A DNA stretch of 64,000 nucleotides from Acidovorax delafieldii (GTDB taxonomy: Bacteria > Pseudomonadota > Gammaproteobacteria > Burkholderiales > Burkholderiaceae_C), in contig NZ_VJWE01000012.1 of assembly GCF_007993815.1 (NCBI RefSeq), forward strand, positions 248,001-312,000. The letters are read 5' to 3'. Below are positions 7,339-29,010 of this stretch, piece by piece. Numbering within the stretch: position 1 is the stretch's first letter; every line of letters begins with the position of its first letter. The position numbers were made by a program, and so were the translations under genes. A model generated the notes under the pieces. That model worked only from the letters and a program-made list of their open reading frames with translations. It did no database searches and was not told where the DNA came from.

Positions 7339-8286
7339 ATGGACCTAATGGACAACGTGTTGCTGGCTGTGGAAGACCTTCTGAGTTTTGTAGAGGTAGC
7401 CGACGCAGGAGGCTTCACCGCTGCCAGCAGGCGCACAGGCATACCGAAGTCGCGATTGAGTCGTCGCGTGGCGGCTCTTGAATCATTCCTTGGGGTTGCC
7501 CTGCTGCACCGCTATGCACGGCGGTTTGAATTGACCGATGTAGGGCAACGCATTTTTCTACATGGCCAGGCGGTGCGAGCTGAAACGCAAACGGCTATCT
7601 CCGTCGCACGTGAGAGCCTGGAGAGTCCCTGGGGACAACTACGGGTGGCTTGCCCAGCAGCCATTGCGGCATCCCTTGTTGGCCGAATAGCCCTGCAATT
7701 CAGCGCTCGCTATCCTCGCGTCACCCTGTCACTTCAAACCACGGACGGTCGTTTGCGCCCCTTGGACGACACAGTGGACCTCGTGATTCAGCCGACCACA
7801 CAGCCTCTGACGGACTCCAGCCTTGTCGCCAGACGGCTGGCAACGGTCCCCTATGGGTTGTATGCAAGTCCAGCGCTCGTTACAGCGCTCAACATCCCGG
7901 AGACACCATTGGCACTATCCCGCTGCGCTGCTGTGGGCTGGAGTATTACTGCGTCACTGGCTCGCTGGACACTGATCGGCCCCCAGAACGAAAGTGCGGA
8001 CGTTGAGCTGGACGTGCGCTTTGTGAGCGACAACCTGCTGTTGAACCGAGACGCAGCGCTTCAGGGGTTAGGGGTTGTGCAGCTTCCGAGGATCATGGCG
8101 GCCAGCTTTGTCGCGAGCGGACATCTGCTTCAGGTAGCGCCCGACTGGGTTCCCCCCGCGATGCACATCTACGCCCTTTATCCGTCGCGCCGCCACCTAA
8201 CGCTGGCGGGCCGCTGCTTTCTGGATATGCTGGAAGACGGAATGAAAGATGTAGGAAGCACTTCAGGTCAGCCGCACTCGGCGTGA
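7339..8286 (+). CDS. LysR-family transcriptional regulator
   Basis: A 315-residue LysR-type regulator. An N-terminal winged helix-turn-helix (residues about 12-75, FTAASRRTGIPKSRLSRRVAAL) is followed by a periplasmic-binding-like effector domain. It is divergent from the esterase across a 216-bp gap, the classical arrangement for control of the neighbouring gene. ATG 7339 and 7348 are both possible starts; neither has a strong ribosome site. Confidence 0.88.
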   Translation: MDLMDNVLLAVEDLLSFVEVADAGGFTAASRRTGIPKSRLSRRVAALESFLGVALLHRYARRFELTDVGQRIFLHGQAVRAETQTAISVARESLESPWGQLRVACPAAIAASLVGRIALQFSARYPRVTLSLQTTDGRLRPLDDTVDLVIQPTTQPLTDSSLVARRLATVPYGLYASPALVTALNIPETPLALSRCAAVGWSITASLARWTLIGPQNESADVELDVRFVSDNLLLNRDAALQGLGVVQLPRIMAASFVASGHLLQVAPDWVPPAMHIYALYPSRRHLTLAGRCFLDMLEDGMKDVGSTSGQPHSA

Positions 8287-21907: not shown

Positions 21908-22705
21908 TCAGACCGGCACGGTGTAGTTGAGCGTCATGCGCCCACCGTCCACAGTCACGATCTCGCCGGTCACATAGCTGGCCGCATCGCTGGCCAGCCA
22001 GGCCACCACATCGGCAATCTCGGACGGCTCGCCCAGCCGCTTCATGGGCGTGCGGCTCATGATCTTGTTCTTGGCCTCATCGCTGGTCAGCACGGCCTTG
22101 GCGGCCAGCTCGGTGGCGATGGTGCCCGGCGCCACCGCGTTCACGCGGATGTTCTTGTCGGCCAATGCCAGCGCCATCACCCGCGAGAGCTGGTTCACGC
22201 CGCCTTTGCTCACGTTGTAGCTGGAGATATTGGGAATGGTCAGCACACCGTTGACCGAGCTCATGTTCACGATCGAACCGCCTCCCGATACCACCATGGC
22301 CCGCGCCACCGCCTGGCCGACCAGGAACGAGCCCTTGAGGTTGACCCGCAGCACCGCGTCAAAGTCGGCCTCGGTTACCTCCAGAAAGTCTGCCGCGCGA
22401 AAGATGCCCGCGTTGTTCACCAGCACGTCGATGCGCCCATGGGCCGCCAGGGTCTGGGCCACCAGTGCATCCACCTGCGATTTATCGCCCACATCGCAGC
22501 GCACATACAGCGCGCCCAGCTCCTGTGCCAGCGCCTGGCCACGCGCATCGTCCACGTCGACGATCACCGGCTTGGCGCCTTCGGCCGCAAAGCGGCGGAC
22601 ACAGGCCTCGCCAATGCCTTGGGCGCCACCCGTGACGATGCAGACGCGGCCCTGATGACCGAAGTGGATGGACGATGTAGAAGGTGCTTGGGTGGGAAGG
22701 TTCAT
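21908..22705 (-). CDS. Short-chain dehydrogenase/reductase
   Basis: A 265-residue classical SDR: cofactor loop TGGAQGIGEA, NNAG (VLVNNAGIF), catalytic Ser in VNMSSVNG, the YNVSK Tyr-Lys pair and PGTIATEL. The Asp after beta-2 (VIVDVDD) points to NAD(H) rather than NADP(H). The ATG at 22705 is used because upstream residues are an unlikely Arg-rich extension. It is the last host gene before the prophage. Substrate unknown. Confidence 0.88.
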   Translation of the reverse strand: MNLPTQAPSTSSIHFGHQGRVCIVTGGAQGIGEACVRRFAAEGAKPVIVDVDDARGQALAQELGALYVRCDVGDKSQVDALVAQTLAAHGRIDVLVNNAGIFRAADFLEVTEADFDAVLRVNLKGSFLVGQAVARAMVVSGGGSIVNMSSVNGVLTIPNISSYNVSKGGVNQLSRVMALALADKNIRVNAVAPGTIATELAAKAVLTSDEAKNKIMSRTPMKRLGEPSEIADVVAWLASDAASYVTGEIVTVDGGRMTLNYTVPV

Positions 22706-22782
22706 GGACGGTGATGGTAGCGGCTTGAGCAAGAGGCAGCGCCGACGGCGCATTGGCGCTTCGTTGGGATGACATCGTTAAT

Positions 22783-22810
22783 GTTAGATACGATGTATAG
22801 AATCGTTAAC
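22783..22810. other. Left prophage junction, dif-like site with altered right arm (attL)
   Basis: Left arm GTTAGATACGA, centre TGTATA, right arm GAATCGTTAAC. The 15 bases TAGATACGATGTATA (22785-22799) recur exactly at 28985-28999. The right arm differs from the XerD-type arm TTATGTTAAAT at the other junction, so it is probably the phage-derived arm. Confidence 0.8.
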
Positions 22811-23158
22811 GTTGGCGTCATTCTTTGCTATTGTTTCCATAGCTGAAGTCGAGTCTCCGCTGTAGGAACACACCAACAGACCCGCCACGCCAGCGGCTAT
22901 GGCCTTTCCCAATATCTCACGCAGCACGCCTTCCCGGCGTGTCCCTTTTGCGCTCTCGATCACCGCTGCGATCGCAGCCTCCCTCGCATCCTCTCCGGCG
23001 ATATCTGCCAGCTCCGCCGCTGTAGCTGGTGATACGGCTCGTTTTCCTGATCGCATCAGCGACAGGTTAGGGCGCTCTATCCCCATTCGTTCCGCAAGTG
23101 CCGTATCGCTACCGCACACTTTTGAGGCTTTGTCAATAAGGTCTTTTACGGATTGCAT
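22784..23158 (-). CDS. Prophage repressor-like HTH protein, shortened by integration
   Basis: A 124-residue protein with an N-terminal helix-turn-helix (SDTALAERMGIERPNLSLMRSG, seen in two adjoining helices) followed by VSPATAAELADIAGED, as in DUF3693-type proteins of filamentous phages. A weakly hydrophobic helix (AIAAGVAGLLVC) follows. It is divergent from the phage replication operon and is the likely lysogeny regulator. The stop codon (22784-22786) uses one host base at the junction. In the circular phage the base there is G, the frame stays open for 28 more codons and ends with TGA at 28900-28902, giving 152 residues. Confidence 0.8.
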   Translation of the reverse strand: MQSVKDLIDKASKVCGSDTALAERMGIERPNLSLMRSGKRAVSPATAAELADIAGEDAREAAIAAVIESAKGTRREGVLREILGKAIAAGVAGLLVCSYSGDSTSAMETIAKNDANVNDSIHRI

Positions 23159-23188
23159 GTATCACTCCTGATATCTGAGACTCTACCA

Positions 23189-23208
23189 CTGTATCGATAT
23201 TGATACAG
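23189..23208. promoter_or_regulatory. Probable phage operator between repressor and replication genes
   Basis: CTGTATC and GATACAG form a perfect 7-bp inverted repeat separated by six bases, in the 67-bp gap between divergent repressor and ssDNA-binding protein genes. Position and symmetry suit the binding site of the HTH protein; the GGAG ribosome site of the next gene starts just after it. Confidence 0.6.
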
Positions 23209-23225
23209 CCACGGAGTTATCAAAC

Positions 23226-23531
23226 ATGATCCAAGTATCGGTGACATCGACCGAAGTGCGCAACCAACGCGGCACAGCCAAGGCAAGCGGCAAGGCTTAC
23301 GACCTCAACTTTCAAACCGTCTGGTTCCACACTCACGACCGGGCAGGCAACAAAAACCCGTACCCCGAAAAGTCGGAAATCATCCTCGAAAAGAACGAAC
23401 AGGGCGCCCCCCTGTTTTGGCCCATCGGTGAATACACCCTGGCGCCTTCCTCGGTGTACGTGGACCGCTCGGGCAATCTCGCAATCGCTCCGCGCCTCGT
23501 TGCTCTCAAGCCCAAAGCCGTCGCGGCCTGA
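23226..23531 (+). CDS. Filamentous phage ssDNA-binding protein (gpV-like)
   Basis: A 101-residue protein. The beta-rich sequence with aromatic residues (KAYDLNFQTVWFHTHD, LFWPIGEYTL) and its position directly before the small genes and replication protein fit gene V / helix-destabilising proteins that coat the ssDNA during rolling-circle replication and hand it to the assembly machine. GGAG lies 10 bases before the ATG. Confidence 0.8.
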   Translation: MIQVSVTSTEVRNQRGTAKASGKAYDLNFQTVWFHTHDRAGNKNPYPEKSEIILEKNEQGAPLFWPIGEYTLAPSSVYVDRSGNLAIAPRLVALKPKAVAA

Positions 23532-23536
23532 GCATC

Positions 23537-23731
23537 ATGCAAGAGGCCATGCACGCGGCCCGCTTGGTCGCTGCTCAATCGGCACTGCTCGCCCTGCTCA
23601 TTGAGCAGCGGGGCGACCACATCGAAAACGTTGACGGTGTGTCCGTCACGCTCGCTTTTGACGGCGAGACAACCGGCCTCGATGTGATCTACACATCCAA
23701 CGGCATGCCAGTGGGCGGTGAGGGCGCATGA
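23537..23731 (+). CDS. Small phage protein of unknown function
   Basis: A 64-residue acidic protein, five bases after gpV and overlapping the next gene by ATGA. N-terminal helix rich in Ala and Leu, then a hydrophilic beta-like part (VDGVSVTLAFDGETTGLDVI). No family recognised; position in the replication operon suggests a role in replication or its control. Confidence 0.6.
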   Translation: MQEAMHAARLVAAQSALLALLIEQRGDHIENVDGVSVTLAFDGETTGLDVIYTSNGMPVGGEGA

Positions 23732-23883
23732 GCGAATCCGCCCGCCGCGTCCTCGTTCTTCGCTACTGGCTTGAAGCCATGGAAGAGAAGGGCGCCACAT
23801 CGTCCTACGCAGTCCAGCAGGTGTACATCACCGAGCCCAAGCTGCGTGAGGCCGCTTCGTTCGTCATCGGCTGGGGCTGCTGA
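23728..23883 (+). CDS. 51-residue phage protein, unknown function
   Basis: A short gene coupled at both ends: its ATG overlaps the previous stop (ATGA) and its TGA shares one base with the replication-gene ATG. The product starts MSESARRVLVLRYWLEAMEE and ends in FVIGWGC; it looks like a small soluble helical protein. Tight coupling in the operon supports that it is translated. Confidence 0.6.
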   Translation: MSESARRVLVLRYWLEAMEEKGATSSYAVQQVYITEPKLREAASFVIGWGC

Positions 23884-24842
23884 TGGTCGCCGCAGTTTCC
23901 AACCTCCTGCACTTCGACAGCACGCCCGGAATGGTGCGCGCTGCTCACGTTGCGCACGCCCGTTCGTGCGCTCGTTTCGAGGCGCAGCGTGTCCAGCAGG
24001 AGGCGCGCAGCGCCTCCGGGCTTGTCTCAGTATCAACAACTTGCACAAGCGGGTCTGTTGTTGTCGATTGGGCTGAAAACTGCATAACCATTGACCCCAA
24101 AGCCTCCCGCGTTACCCGCTTGCGCAAGGGCCTTGGTATCGCTGCGAAGCAGCTTCACAACCAGGGCGATAAAAACCAAACGATCTGGATGCAGACCCTG
24201 ACCTACAAAGGCGACAACCGCCAATGGAGGCCAGAGCACATCAGTCGTTACCTTGATGCACTTCGCAAGTGGCACTACGCCCGCACAGGCTCCAAGGCCG
24301 TCCGTTACGCCTGGGTAGCCGAGCTTCAACAACGCGGCGTCATCCACTATCACGTGATTGTGTGGCTCGGCGCTGGACTGACCCCTCCCAAGCCCGACCA
24401 GCCTTGGCACAGCAAGGACCGCAAGGGCCTTAAGCAGTGGCACCCCCCTATGTGGTCGCACGGCATGTCTAACCGCCTGCGCTCAACCGCTCCAGTGGCC
24501 TACCTCATGAAGTACGCCAGCAAGATCGAATCCAAGAACGTTGGCACCTTCCCTCACGGTGCCCGAATTCATGGGGCAGGGGGTCTAGACACCTCCGGTC
24601 GTGCCATTCGTCGCTGGGTCCTCTGGCCTGCCTATGTCCAGTGCAATGCCTCAGTCGCTGACCACTTCAAGCCCGCTACTGGCGGCGGCTATATCAACGA
24701 ATCGACCGGGGAAGTCCTCTTGCCTGAGTTCGCCCCAACTGGCGGCGGCTTCACCAGCTTTATCCGCATCAGAACCACTCCACGCCGTATCGACCCGGCT
24801 GGCCCTTTCTCCTGGCTACCAACTTCCACACAGGTGCATTGA
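23883..24842 (+). CDS. Rolling-circle replication initiation protein (gpII-like, HUH endonuclease)
   Basis: A 319-residue Rep protein. GVIHYHVIVWL is the HUH metal-binding motif (His-hydrophobic-His) and AYLMKYASKIE supplies the downstream catalytic Tyr with a Lys (YxxK type). The protein nicks the phage plus origin and starts rolling-circle synthesis. The first 60 residues are less conserved in appearance. The ATG overlaps the preceding stop by one base. Confidence 0.85.
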   Translation: MVAAVSNLLHFDSTPGMVRAAHVAHARSCARFEAQRVQQEARSASGLVSVSTTCTSGSVVVDWAENCITIDPKASRVTRLRKGLGIAAKQLHNQGDKNQTIWMQTLTYKGDNRQWRPEHISRYLDALRKWHYARTGSKAVRYAWVAELQQRGVIHYHVIVWLGAGLTPPKPDQPWHSKDRKGLKQWHPPMWSHGMSNRLRSTAPVAYLMKYASKIESKNVGTFPHGARIHGAGGLDTSGRAIRRWVLWPAYVQCNASVADHFKPATGGGYINESTGEVLLPEFAPTGGGFTSFIRIRTTPRRIDPAGPFSWLPTSTQVH

Positions 24843-25048
24843 TGGAAATCGACCTCTCATTTTTCGCCCATCGCGTTGCAATGCTCGCCTGCCTTTCTGG
24901 CTTCGTCGGCGGTCTGCTGTTCGTGCTGGTGCATGGCGCAGTAGTCGCCCTCTCTGAGCGTCTGCGCTCTCGCGCACACCGTGCCGAACGCATCGCCCAG
25001 GCACGCATTCGCCAGCAGTCAATCATGCGGGCCATGCCACGTGGCTGA
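24842..25048 (+). CDS. Small phage membrane protein
   Basis: A 68-residue protein with one transmembrane helix (VAMLACLSGFVGGLLFVLVHG) followed by a strongly basic, Arg-rich helical tail. The ATG shares one base with the replication-gene stop. A membrane helix with a positive tail at this place in the genome suits a minor coat or assembly protein (gpVII/gpIX position), but no family is recognised. Confidence 0.6.
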   Translation: MEIDLSFFAHRVAMLACLSGFVGGLLFVLVHGAVVALSERLRSRAHRAERIAQARIRQQSIMRAMPRG

Positions 25049-25253
25049 CCCCACTGTTATCGAATGCCCCGGCACCTGCACGGTGACTGTGGTGCATGAA
25101 TTAAGCCTCCCTCCGCTGCAACTCGATACAGCGGATGGAGCAGCCATCGCGGGCGCCGTCCTCGCGGTCTGGGCTGTCGGCTGGGCATTTCGCATGCTCA
25201 TTCGCACCCTGAACATTGACGGCAATTCATCAACTTCATCTGAGGAAAACTGA
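25041..25253 (+). CDS. Small phage membrane protein, probable minor coat component
   Basis: A 70-residue protein starting at GTG 25041, overlapping the previous stop. It has one central hydrophobic helix (GAAIAGAVLAVWAVGWAFRML) and a polar C-terminus rich in Ser/Glu/Asn. An N-terminal pair of Cys (ECPGTC) is notable. Located directly before the major coat gene, where Ff phages have gpVII and gpIX. An earlier in-frame ATG (24981) would overlap the previous gene deeply and is less likely. Confidence 0.6.
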   Translation: MADPTVIECPGTCTVTVVHELSLPPLQLDTADGAAIAGAVLAVWAVGWAFRMLIRTLNIDGNSSTSSEEN

Positions 25254-25254
25254 C

Positions 25255-25458
25255 ATGCAAAAAACCTTCAATCGCTCGCTCGTCGCCGTTGTCGCTCTGG
25301 CCGGTGCTGCTGCTGCCAATGCCGCTGCTGTGGATGTGACCGCCGTCACTACAGACATTGCCGCACAGGCCGCACCTATCGCCGCTGTCGGCGCTGCCGT
25401 GCTGGTGCTCTACGTTGGCATCAAGGCGTTCAAGTGGGTGCGCAAGGCTCTGTCCTAA
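25255..25458 (+). CDS. Major coat protein precursor (gpVIII-like)
   Basis: A 67-residue precursor: signal peptide MQKTFNRSLVAVVALAGAAA ending near ANA, then an acidic amphipathic stretch (AVDVTAVTTDIAAQAAP), a transmembrane helix (VGAAVLVLYVGIKAFKWV) and a basic Lys-rich C-terminus that faces the DNA. This is the exact architecture of filamentous phage major coat proteins. GAGGA lies nine bases before the ATG. Confidence 0.93.
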   Translation: MQKTFNRSLVAVVALAGAAAANAAAVDVTAVTTDIAAQAAPIAAVGAAVLVLYVGIKAFKWVRKALS

Positions 25459-25503
25459 GCCCTCACTGCATCAGTCCCTGACCGGCCGGCAGGGGCCTTG
25501 CAA

Positions 25504-25524
25504 AAGCTCACGAGGGGTGAGCTT
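25504..25524 (+). terminator. Hairpin between coat and adsorption genes
   Basis: AAGCTCAC and GTGAGCTT form a perfect 8-bp stem with a 5-base loop. A second, weaker GC-rich dyad (CCCTG/CAGGG) sits at about 25479. There is no T-run, so it may be a weak terminator or an RNA-stabilising structure, as found after gene VIII in Ff phages to give high coat-protein expression. Confidence 0.6.
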
Positions 25525-25542
25525 CTACAAGGTGCAAAACAA

Positions 25543-25602
25543 ATGGGCCTCTTCGTCATCATCGCCATCCTGGGGGCCGCATGGCTGATCTTTACCGCCT
25601 GA
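25543..25602 (+). CDS. Possible 19-residue hydrophobic phage peptide
   Basis: ATG 25543 follows AAGGTG at 25529-25534. The product, MGLFVIIAILGAAWLIFTA, is almost entirely one membrane helix and its end overlaps the start of the adsorption gene (25581) in another frame. It would be shorter than Ff pIX (32 residues). Evidence is only position, ribosome site and composition, so it is tentative. Confidence 0.4.
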   Translation: MGLFVIIAILGAAWLIFTA

Positions 25603-27242
25603 TCGTCGCGGTCCTCCTGCTGTGCTTCGGACCTCCCGCGTTGGCCGATGGTGGCCCCTTCCCTGCAACGCCTGGGCAGTGGAATACAGCCTATTGCAAC
25701 TCCACCAATTTCCCTGTCGGTCAACTGGGCGCCGGTATCTCCGCCAGTTGGACGTGCAAGGCCACGGCTAATCCCAATGTGCAGGACTGCGGCTACACAT
25801 ACAACAACGGGTATTACGACGGCAAATGCACCCAGCAAAAGGGGCCGGACTCTTGCCCCTCCGGCTCAACCATGAGCACTAGCGGTTCTGGCGCCTCTGT
25901 CTGCACATGCGGCGCTGGCTTGGTCCCTTTCAATGGCGGTTGTCAGCAAAAGCCACAGTGCCCCGAAGGCACGCACGAAGAGGGCGGTGCATGCGTTCCA
26001 AACGACTGCAAACCCGATGAAACCCGCGTCAATGGTGTGTGCGTCAAAGACCCGCCGTGCCCTGCCGGTGAAACCCGCATCAATGGCGTGTGCAAGAAAA
26101 ACAAATGCAAGGCGGGCGCCTCCGCAGGTGACTACACGGATCTGAGCGATAGCGTCACCTATCTTTGCGAAATGTCCGATGGCATGAATTGCCAAGTGCG
26201 TATCAAGCCCACCATCTGCGTCAAGATTGACGGCATTGAGAGCTGTACTGGTGCGGGCACCTTCACAGGTGCCACCTGCTCCGGTGGCAATGGAGGCACA
26301 GGCGGCGGCAATGGCAGCGGCGATGCTGGCGGAAACAATGGTGGCAATGGTTCTGGCCCTGGCACTGGTGGCGGCGGTAATGGTTCAAATGGCACTGGCT
26401 CTGGTGGCACAGGTACAGGTGGCGGCGGCACTGGCACAGGTACTGGCGGGGGTGGAACAGGCACAGGCGGCGGCGGCACGGGCTCAGGCGGGACCGGTAG
26501 CGGTGGTACCGGCTCAGGGGGCACCGGGGATGGTGGCACTGGCAACGGCGGCACCGGCACAGGCACCGGAAATGGCGGCTCCGGTCCGGGCTCCGGGTCA
26601 GGGGGGCCTAACTTGCCACCCCCCATCGTCATTCCTCCAGCTCCTGAAGGTGTTTGCCCTGACGGCTATCACAAAAGTGGCAATTGGTGCGTGAAGAACC
26701 CGGTTCCTCCCGATGGCAACGGCGGTTGCCCTCAAGGCTCCGTGAAGATCAACGGCAATTGCGTTTACACGGAACCTCCATCCGGTGGCGGTGGCGGCAC
26801 CGGCACAGGTGGCGGCGGCACTGGCACAGGTTCAGGTAATGGTGAAGGCGAGGAGGGCAACGGCTTTGGCGGCTCCTGCATTTCTGGCTTCGCCTGTGAA
26901 GGAGACGCCATTCAATGCGCCATAGCGAAGGAGCAGTACGCCCGTAACTGCAAGCTGTTTGACGATACAAGCGCCGAATCTGACCTCTACAACGCCAACA
27001 AGGGCAAGACCGGCAACCAGACCGGCGATCTACCCGGAAACGAAACCATCAGCCTGAGCGGTCGCATCGACACATCGGACCCGCTCGGCGGTGGTGGCTG
27101 CATCGGAGATTTGAGCATCACCGTGTGGGGCCATGGCGTTTCCTTACCCCTTTCCAACCTCTGCCAGTACCTTGCCATGCTCGGCAATATCTTGGTGGCT
27201 GTGTCGATGCTCATGGCCGCCCGCATCGTCACAAGGGGATAA
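25581..27242 (+). CDS. Adsorption protein, pIII/TspB-like
   Basis: A 553-residue virion-tip protein. Signal peptide (about residues 1-22, cleavage after PPALA), a Cys-rich N-terminal region with repeated short modules (KPDETRVNGVCVKD, PAGETRINGVCKKN, PQGSVKINGNCVYT), a long Gly/Ser/Thr linker (roughly residues 230-350) made of GGTGTGGG-type repeats, another Cys module, and a C-terminal anchor helix (LCQYLAMLGNILVAVSMLMA). This resembles Neisseria TspB and Ff pIII: receptor-binding domains, flexible Gly linker, membrane anchor. It determines host range; the pilus or receptor is unknown. Confidence 0.88.
   Translation: MADLYRLIVAVLLLCFGPPALADGGPFPATPGQWNTAYCNSTNFPVGQLGAGISASWTCKATANPNVQDCGYTYNNGYYDGKCTQQKGPDSCPSGSTMSTSGSGASVCTCGAGLVPFNGGCQQKPQCPEGTHEEGGACVPNDCKPDETRVNGVCVKDPPCPAGETRINGVCKKNKCKAGASAGDYTDLSDSVTYLCEMSDGMNCQVRIKPTICVKIDGIESCTGAGTFTGATCSGGNGGTGGGNGSGDAGGNNGGNGSGPGTGGGGNGSNGTGSGGTGTGGGGTGTGTGGGGTGTGGGGTGSGGTGSGGTGSGGTGDGGTGNGGTGTGTGNGGSGPGSGSGGPNLPPPIVIPPAPEGVCPDGYHKSGNWCVKNPVPPDGNGGCPQGSVKINGNCVYTEPPSGGGGGTGTGGGGTGTGSGNGEGEEGNGFGGSCISGFACEGDAIQCAIAKEQYARNCKLFDDTSAESDLYNANKGKTGNQTGDLPGNETISLSGRIDTSDPLGGGGCIGDLSITVWGHGVSLPLSNLCQYLAMLGNILVAVSMLMAARIVTRG
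26280..26610 (+). repeat. Low-complexity glycine-linker repeats inside the adsorption gene
   Basis: Tandem imperfect units of GGC/GGT/GGA with ACT/ACA/TCA codons code for a Gly-Thr/Ser linker. The block is in frame throughout, so it is a protein linker and not an independent element. A shorter second block lies at about 26790-26840. Such tracts can change length by slippage. Confidence 0.75.
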
Positions 27243-27246
27243 CACC

Positions 27247-27546
27247 ATGCCTATTTTTGTTGCTGCCATTGGCGGCATGTTGATTAACCTCGTTGGCACC
27301 CTCGCGGGCCGCATCCTGATCGCCTTGGGCATCAGTGTTGTGACCTATACCGGCGTGTCATCGTCCCTCGATTGGATGAAAGCCGGGGCGCTGGCCGCGC
27401 TCGGTGGCCTACCTGCTGAAATGATCGGCCTGATTGGCTTCATGAAAGTAGGGGTGTGCATCAGCATCATCACCAGCGCAATCGCTGCGCGGGCAGTCGT
27501 CAGCGGCATCAGCGGCGACAGCTTCAAGAAGTGGGTCATGAAATGA
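27247..27546 (+). CDS. DUF2523 minor coat protein (gpVI-like)
   Basis: A 99-residue hydrophobic protein with three membrane segments (AIGGMLINLVGTLAGRILIAL, then ALAALGGLPAEMIGLIGFM, and a short third), as in DUF2523/gpVI proteins that cap the adsorption end of filamentous virions. It starts 4 bases after the adhesin stop and overlaps the zot start by ATGA. Confidence 0.85.
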   Translation: MPIFVAAIGGMLINLVGTLAGRILIALGISVVTYTGVSSSLDWMKAGALAALGGLPAEMIGLIGFMKVGVCISIITSAIAARAVVSGISGDSFKKWVMK

Positions 27547-28733
27547 TCTATCTGACCACCGGAGCGAACGGCGCCGGAAAAACGCTGATCACCCTGCGCG
27601 ATGTGCGCGCCCAGCAACTCAAGGAAAACCGCCCGGTCTACTATCACGGCTTCGATATGGACGAGGCCAAGGCAGTGGAATTCGGCTGGCAGAAGTTCGA
27701 CCCCAAGAAGTGGCAAGACCTGCCTGATGGCTCCATCTGCGTGATGGACGAATGCCAAAACGAATTCCCGCTCAGGCGCTCAGGCTCTGACGTTCCGGAC
27801 TACGTGCAAGCCATCGCCCAGCATCGGCGGCGTCGCGGCTTTGACTTCTGGATGATCTGCCCGCACCCATCGCTGATTGATGTGTTTGTGCGTCGCCTGA
27901 TCGACAAGCCTTCATGGCACCGCCACCTGAAACGGGCCTTTGGCGCCGATGTGGTGAGCGTTCTTCGCTTCTCAAGCCCGGACATGAAGTGCGAAGAACC
28001 CGGCGCAGGCGCACGCGGTGAAGTCTCGATGGTGGGCTATCCGAAGGAGGTTTACAGTTGGTATCGCTCGGCCAGCTTGCACACCGGGAAAAAGAAAATC
28101 CCTCGGGCCGTCTTTGTCCTGGCCGCGTGCGCCATCGCCGTTCCTGCGGCTCTGTACTTCGCTATCACTGGCGTTTACAAGAACGCCACGAAGCAAGCAA
28201 AGCCAGCTACAGAAACCATAGCAAACCAGCCAGGCACAAATGCCGCCGCTTCACCTAGTCAAAACCTGCGCCAAGTCGCCCAGGTGATGACCGCAGATGA
28301 ATACATTGCGCAGCGTTCGCCCAGGTTGAAAGACTTCGCTCACACGGCACCGGCTTATGACGAAGTGACGAAACCGACAGAGGCGCCGTACCCTGCGGCG
28401 TGCGTCCAAATGGGCAAAACCTGCAAGTGCTACACCCAGCAGGCCACGCTATTGCAGGTCAGCGGGGCCGTGTGCCTCCAGATCGTGGCGCAAGGCTTTT
28501 TCATGGACTGGAAAACGGCCAGCAAGGGGGAATACAGCCACCGCGACAGGGGCGACTATCAGCAGGGCCGCAACATGCCGCCAACGGGCCAGCAAATGGC
28601 CCAAGCGGCCCCGGTTCGCACCGTGCCAGTGCCCGACCCAGCGCACAAGCATCCGCAGGTGCAATCGACGTCTGAATGGGCGCAAGGTCTTGCAGCGCGC
28701 AATGCACAGGTGCGCTCCAGCTTGACCCAGTGA
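27543..28733 (+). CDS. zot: Zot-domain assembly ATPase (gpI-like)
   Basis: A 396-residue protein with an N-terminal Zot/gpI P-loop ATPase domain (TGANGAGKT Walker A; SICVMDECQNEF Walker B), a basic stretch, one transmembrane helix near residues 186-206 (AVFVLAACAIAVPAALYF) and a periplasmic C-terminal half with Cys pair CKCY. It drives virion extrusion across the inner membrane and would join a host secretin. In Vibrio CTX phage the homologue is called zonula occludens toxin; here the phage assembly role is the supported one. Confidence 0.93.
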   Translation: MIYLTTGANGAGKTLITLRDVRAQQLKENRPVYYHGFDMDEAKAVEFGWQKFDPKKWQDLPDGSICVMDECQNEFPLRRSGSDVPDYVQAIAQHRRRRGFDFWMICPHPSLIDVFVRRLIDKPSWHRHLKRAFGADVVSVLRFSSPDMKCEEPGAGARGEVSMVGYPKEVYSWYRSASLHTGKKKIPRAVFVLAACAIAVPAALYFAITGVYKNATKQAKPATETIANQPGTNAAASPSQNLRQVAQVMTADEYIAQRSPRLKDFAHTAPAYDEVTKPTEAPYPAACVQMGKTCKCYTQQATLLQVSGAVCLQIVAQGFFMDWKTASKGEYSHRDRGDYQQGRNMPPTGQQMAQAAPVRTVPVPDPAHKHPQVQSTSEWAQGLAARNAQVRSSLTQ

Positions 28734-28853
28734 GGCCGCTTCTTCATTGAGAGACAACGGGGACCCGGACCGGAGACCTTGTGTCGTAGGTTTGGGGCGG
28801 GGGTATGGGGCCGCAGGGCACCATGTAGGACCGTTGCACAACCCTTACCCCAT
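28734..28853. other. Phage intergenic region, possible origin of replication
   Basis: The only sizeable non-coding block in the prophage. It holds G-rich and C-rich runs (around 28793-28806 and 28842-28852) and a CCGG dyad near 28771. Filamentous phages keep the plus origin and packaging signal in such a region, but I cannot identify a nick site. Confidence 0.4.
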
Positions 28854-28877
28854 AAAAAAAGCCCGCGATCTGCGGGC
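28854..28877 (-). terminator. Rho-independent terminator on the minus strand, probable native repressor terminator
   Basis: GCCCGC (28861-28866) and GCGGGC (28872-28877) pair around GATCT, with seven A to the left, so the T-run follows the stem on the minus strand. No minus-strand gene precedes it in the integrated form. In the circular phage the repressor frame crosses the attachment core and ends at 28900, 22 bases before this stem. Confidence 0.8.
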
Positions 28878-28982
28878 CACTCAATAAACCGGGTCAGTCT
28901 CAGCAAGTAGCCGCCGAGGATGCGCCACAGGGATGCAAGCGCAGCGCAGCCCGGAGGCGTACCGCAGCGCGGCGTAATAGCG

Positions 28983-29010
28983 AGTAGATACGATGTATAT
29001 TATGTTAAAT
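28983..29010. other. dif: dif site / right prophage junction (attR)
   Basis: Left arm AGTAGATACGA, centre TGTATA, right arm TTATGTTAAAT. From the end of the left arm the last 18 bases are identical to E. coli dif, and the spacing 11-6-11 is that of a XerC-XerD site. XerCD resolve chromosome dimers here, activated by FtsK, and filamentous phages use such sites to integrate. Because the XerD arm is intact, this junction is the one likely to stay functional. Confidence 0.88.

Follow-up and report, generated by a model that had tools for sequence, protein, structure and literature searches.

Placement of the phage attachment site within a regulatory gene has been described for the Ralstonia phage phiRSS0, whose attP lies in ORF13; according to the published account, integration creates a stop codon that shortens the product from 156 to 130 residues (Yamada 2013, PMC3816273). 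Different roles for the two forms of ORF13 were proposed in that account, as a hypothesis (PMC3816273). The attP of XacF1 is described as lying within ORF12 (PMC4076744), and the phiRSM phages are reported to encode their own serine recombinase and to carry attP between genes (PMC3816273).

In the mycobacteriophage BPs, attP is located in the ORF of the repressor gp33, and integration reduces this protein from 136 to 103 residues. As reported for BPs, immunity depends on integration (this was tested experimentally), the integrase gene lies next to the repressor gene, and the long form carries an ssrA-like degradation tag (PMC4557955).

Here we describe a prophage in a stretch of 64,000 nucleotides of the Acidovorax delafieldii genome (referred to below as the window), in which the attachment core crosses the end of the repressor gene. 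Sequence analysis confirms this arrangement, which is also found in relatives. It has already been published for a similar phage, phiRSS0, and the regulatory reading was already proposed in the account of that phage (PMC3816273). As in phiRSS0, a dif-like core lies within the ORF of a reverse-strand regulator of the circular phage, and integration at dif creates a new stop codon, with a loss of 26 residues in phiRSS0 and 28 in the window (PMC3816273). phiRSS0 is compared by its published description, and the exact host stop and the operators are described here only, for the clade of the window phage.

As in BPs, attP is inside the repressor ORF and the C-terminus is shortened by integration (PMC4557955). 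Unlike BPs as published, the window phage, known here from its sequence, has no ssrA-like tag and no integrase gene beside the repressor gene, the neighbours of which are ssb and, past attP, zot. In the open-access literature, no paper was found that joins filamentous phage, integration-dependent and XerC.

A filamentous-phage prophage at a dif-like site

The prophage occupies positions 22785-28984 of the window (6,200 bp) and is inserted at a dif-like site (Table 1). It is flanked by two copies of a 15-bp core, TAGATACGATGTATA, with no exact match elsewhere in the 5.02-Mb genome; the flanking bases are T at 22784 and G at 28984. When rejoined, the host flanks read GTTAGATACGA-TGTATA-TTATGTTAAAT, a dif-like attB, which we take to resemble the dif site of E. 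coli. In a congener whose dif-like site is empty (L141, genome G262), the core is adjoined by an SDR gene 95.8% identical to the SDR gene of the window, and base 22784 is therefore host DNA.

The gene set is that of a dif-integrating filamentous phage (Rep, ssb, coat B, DUF2523 and Zot). No integrase family was found among the eight prophage proteins scanned, no tRNA gene was detected in the window (ARAGORN), and the glycine-rich protein matched no Pfam family above the cut-off. Integration presumably proceeds via the host XerCD.

Table 1. Features of the prophage and its attachment cores (window coordinates)
Feature	Position	Strand	Remarks
Repressor gene, prophage form	22784..23158	-	124 residues, HTH regulator (phrog_638)
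attL core	22785..22799		minus-strand reading: IHRI, then TA of the stop codon
Palindrome CTGTATC-N6-GATACAG	23189..23208		between repressor and ssb genes; candidate operator (putative function)
ssDNA-binding protein (ssb)	23226..23531	+	Phage_DNA_bind
Replication protein (rep)	23883..24842	+	REP_ORF2-G2P
Coat protein	25255..25458	+	Phage_Coat_B
Glycine-rich protein	25581..27242	+	putatively adsorption-protein-like, by position
DUF2523 protein	27247..27546	+	
Zot-domain (gene I-like) assembly protein	27543..28733	+	
Intrinsic terminator-like stem, then TTTTTT	28860..28878	-	starts 21 nt past the long-form stop
Repressor tail segment, circular phage	28900..28984	-	begins at the shared Tyr codon; 28 residues and a TGA stop
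attR core	28985..28999		second copy of the 15-bp core

Two forms of the repressor

The sequence-only reading had claimed that the repressor of the prophage ends at a TAA completed by host base 22784, and that the circular phage encodes a longer protein. Both claims hold. The prophage form terminates in IHRI, with the TA of its stop codon contributed by the core, and it retains an intact DNA-binding domain. Joining 28984 to 22785 in silico converts the stop codon into TAC, and the frame then continues to a TGA at 28900-28902, i.e. for 28 codons past the core, the Tyr codon included. The lysogen and the circle encode proteins with different C-termini, of 124 and 152 residues, respectively, and a repressor annotated from the prophage is not the one encoded by the free phage.

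In GC-rich DNA an open stretch of 28 codons would be no surprise taken alone; the weight rests on the comparative data. The possibility that the tail of the long form is a chance ORF was rejected, as relatives keep the frame open through the core.

Phage-side and host-side junctions in relatives

The repressor was searched in viral contigs, the core in viral contigs (99 stretches), and both also in genomes. Ten phage sides of the clade were readable (the window, L004, L005, L007, L008, L048, L095, L096, L135 and L167), with redundant rows merged: L006 is the phage of L166, L003 and L056 represent the phage of the window itself, L095/L136 and L007/L060 are one contig each, and L138 is part of L167.

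In all ten phage sides the frame extends beyond the core, by 17-43 codons (Tyr included), and a repressor ending before the core was found in none of them (0/10). The sequence-only reading had proposed a search for free phages carrying the long form, and three relatives were identified (L005, L048 and L095), in which the repressor runs unbroken through the core; the terminal repeats of these contigs (127, 127 and 88 bases, respectively) led us to presume that they are circles.

The base directly after the core is C or T, giving Tyr, in nine of the ten. The exception, L008, has a G at this position, and uses another reading frame through the core that avoids TAG and extends 27.7 codons past it. 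We infer that this junction is a phage side, because the end of its tail (CMGDFTGVNRALAFG) resembles that of L135 (CMGAFAKANRALASG).

At the host-side junctions of the window, L166, L135 and L167 the core is followed by A, A, G and G, respectively, and in all four cases the protein stops immediately at IHRI. L094 was rejected as a fifth host-side junction: its frame stops at the core (TAG), yet what adjoins it is a second dif-borne element and not host DNA. L009, whose contig ends five codons after the core, enters no junction count. L012 and L013 (56% identical) had no core in the DNA examined.

Among 399 genomes of the family, ACATAATATACATCGTATNTA is followed by a purine in 17 and by a pyrimidine in 8, which counts against a universal stop-making base. 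One of the eight pyrimidine sites is the attR of the window prophage; no second core was found within 8 to 16 kb around the other seven, which therefore look like empty sites. A purine after the host core is not an absolute property of the host.

The repressor and its candidate operators

The repressor matches the PHROG profile phrog_638 (transcriptional regulator; E 1.4e-18) over its HTH part, and the same profile is matched by phiLf gp10 and by the regulator of L118. In a search of solved structures the best match was an HTH protein (E 0.0014), the rest being weak and many of them histones; plasmids gave no match to the L005 repressor. Structure prediction for the long form of L005 gave a poor model (mean pLDDT 59.8), with a low-confidence helix (121-139) that begins at the core-coded residues.

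Ahead of the core, five xanthomonad phages have a TM-like segment (best mean over 19 residues, 1.84 to 2.23); it is borderline in the window (1.63) and absent in L095, L009 and L167. In the repressors of L168, L169, L182, L184 and L185, this segment lies between the HTH part and the core, and in some of them it is followed by an AxA motif, presumably like a signal-peptidase site. These five repressors are possibly membrane-tethered.

The palindrome between the repressor and ssb genes faces the ssb/rep operon in the phages of the clade, about 50 bases before the repressor start (about 68 in L048, L009, L094 and L135, in which the match begins at an internal codon). Its sequence varies from phage to phage. 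In ten phages (the window, L004, L006, L007, L008, L009, L048, L095, L096 and L135) a second site resembles the half-sites of the same phage more closely than those of the others, with a mean match of 10.9/12 vs 8.1/12. This second operator-like site is near the ribosome-binding site in nine of the ten; in the window it is weak (9/12) and located elsewhere.

The paired candidate operators support a repressor role for the protein, and the phage-specific pattern of palindrome and second site is what would be expected of separate immunity groups.

A proposed link between integration and immunity

The sequence shows that the phage, which has no recognised integrase gene, enters a dif-like site and that its attP core is part of the 3′-terminal coding sequence of the repressor. 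The circle encodes the 152-residue repressor with its 28-residue cationic tail and a terminator just behind, and upon integration the first host base converts the shared codon to a stop, giving the 124-residue protein. On this basis we propose the following. The short form would be a stable lysogenic repressor acting on the operators ahead of the replication operon; the long form, made from the circle only, would repress or persist less well. Firm immunity would follow only after integration, in a BPs-like manner without an ssrA-like tag.

To the reading in which the short form is the stable lysogenic repressor, the long form is weaker and immunity follows integration, we assign a probability of roughly 0.42. 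In its favour we counted (i) the unbroken long form, (ii) the open frames, (iii) the host stops, (iv) the composition and length of the tails, (v) the paired operators, and (vi) the published analogues. Against it we counted the null result at codon level, the non-ssrA ends, the arbitrary tails of the Xanthomonas phages and the pyrimidine-bearing dif-like sites of hosts. That integration state is coupled to repressor activity or stability, as the sequence-only reading had suggested, is plausible.

A more specific form of this proposal, which we consider doubtful, is that the host dif serves as a one-base stop-codon switch (pyrimidine and Tyr in the phage, purine and stop in the chromosome) by which the cationic tail is shed; integration-dependent immunity would then have arisen independently of the mycobacteriophages and without an ssrA tag.

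The tail in the clade and in the Xanthomonas phages

The 28-residue tail is cationic. In 13 representative tails from both branches, acidic residues account for 7 of 371 positions (1.9%), vs 5.3% in shuffled sequences, none of 2000 shuffles being as low; K+R residues number 67 (18.1% vs 13.7% when shuffled; P 0.006), and all 13 tails have a net positive charge. Since the compared tails are related, these probabilities are optimistic. An ssrA-like degron is unsupported: none of the 13 representative tails ends in AA, and the long form of the window ends in AATC.

An explanation that we place somewhat short of even odds is that the end of the repressor gene, situated between the conserved domain and the convergent zot, is dispensable and merely tolerates attP; the tail would be whatever frame follows, and both forms would repress alike. 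The protein conservation of the repressor drops before the core, in agreement with this, and so is the weak codon signal: no purifying selection was detected in the tail at codon level (35 synonymous and 43 nonsynonymous changes in the six pairs of the window, L004, L005 and L048, the placement of changes in the true frame differing from random in none of the pairs; lowest P 0.10). It is opposed by the presence of the tail in 10/10 phage sides of the clade, with constrained length and composition. Tails of 15-45 codons are found in all ten of these, vs 1 of 15 junctions of Xanthomonas-phage type.

The Xanthomonas-phage branch also speaks for tolerance. Like the window phage, XacF1, Cf1c, phiLf, phiXv2 and Cf2 have attP inside an HTH regulator next to zot; unlike the clade of the window, they vary in the frame of the core and in tail length, and their host junctions often lengthen the protein. 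The dif-like motif lies inside the 3′ part of the HTH regulator in eight phages (phiLf, XacF1, Cf1c, phiXv2, Cf2, phiSHP2, SMA6 and SMA7), with two orientations and more than one frame represented; existing annotation marks it as a recombination or attachment site in phiLf, phiXv2 and Cf2, and it was located by motif in the other five.

From 58 loci of Xanthomonas-phage type, 48 were read (L216 and L234 are unclassified); they were split into host and phage sides by a regular expression, which possibly misfiled L219 and L231. Junctions were taken as distinct when they differed in the 60 bases on either side, so that close relatives are counted apart. In 16 distinct phage-side junctions the core is read in frames 1, 2 and 0 in 7, 6 and 3 cases, respectively; in 15 of the 16 a stop follows, 0.3 to 136 codons after the core (3 to 4 codons in 8 of these 15). 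On the host side, 25 distinct junctions gave 3 to 107 codons after the core in the 24 with a stop, and the regulator is often lengthened in the lysogens. In L194, L228 and L230 (phage side) the repressor frame does not end until over 110 codons beyond the core, and apparently enters the next gene.

Frame and tail of the Xanthomonas phages are arbitrary in both states, and therefore the repressor family needs no tail. A universal integration switch in this regulator family was rejected on these grounds. On the sequences compared, the placement of attP at this gene end is shared, and the orderly tail and exact stop are traits of the window's clade.

Other contigs and small elements at dif

Thirteen further contigs contain the core together with a Zot or Rep match. 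Two of them, L111 and L118, have an opposite-strand regulator that spans the core; no regulator spanning it was seen in the remaining 11, several of which are lysogen ends and uninformative. L118 (terminal repeat 121), L111 and L245 have a regulator crossing the dif core in the opposite core orientation, the core giving a DTMY-type reading in L118 and L111, and apparently represent cases in which attP came to lie in this gene end independently. Among five regulators of L118 type, L246, L247 and L248 lacked a core detectable by motif, and a Vibrio regulator contained a single partial motif, near its start.

Small elements without a Zot, Rep or repressor match were also found at dif (L134, 7815-11735; L094, 5382-7133; L064, 6507-7762). 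L134 has cores at 7819, 9777 and 11735, which delimit two tandem units of 1,958 bp (94% alike), and in L094 a copy of this unit (86% alike) adjoins the phage. A stretch of about 50-67 bases is common to the small elements and the phage rep gene (window 23979-24045); it may be a replication origin, and the elements are possible satellites of these phages.

Terminator and neighbouring host gene

The sequence-only reading had also placed a minus-strand terminator at 28854-28877, behind the long-form stop. Its presence was borne out but its coordinates were not, the stem lying at 28878-28860, where it ranks first among 12 matches between 22600 and 29200 (mean of 6.3 in shuffled sequences, sd 2.6). 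In the direction of zot, which is on the opposite strand, the stem lacks a T-run. Integration does separate the repressor gene from this terminator, as had been stated, by 6.1 kb in the prophage.

Downstream of the repressor stop, at a distance of 31 bases and on the same strand, lies a host SDR-family gene (window 21908-22753). An SDR gene is also present beside the core in the lysogen L166, again on the same strand as the repressor, and at the empty dif of L141. Integration may split the SDR gene from its promoter and place the repressor transcript upstream of it.

It could accordingly be argued that the effect of integration is on the transcript: parted from its terminator, the repressor mRNA would read into the host SDR gene, altering mRNA stability or the expression of the neighbour. 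The same terminator element, at similar spacing, is found behind the long-form stop in L004, L005 and L048, and the position of the SDR gene in the window and L166 is compatible with this idea. However, only four of the ten phage sides, the window included, showed the motif (judged by eye in the relatives, the terminator tool having been run on the window), and host neighbours differ, with no SDR match beside the core in L135 or L167. We consider this explanation improbable.

Very little likelihood attaches to a role of the long form on host genes during infection, with the short form serving immunity and the long form being no weaker a repressor: such a role has been proposed for phiRSS0 ORF13 in the published account (PMC3816273), but the tail is outside the DNA-binding domain.

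Significance

The 124- and 152-residue proteins constitute a small, testable system. If the tail does not matter, the locus shows how freely a compact genome keeps its attachment site inside a gene. If it does, filamentous phages join the mycobacteriophages in tying immunity to integration, with the stop codon supplied by the host dif.
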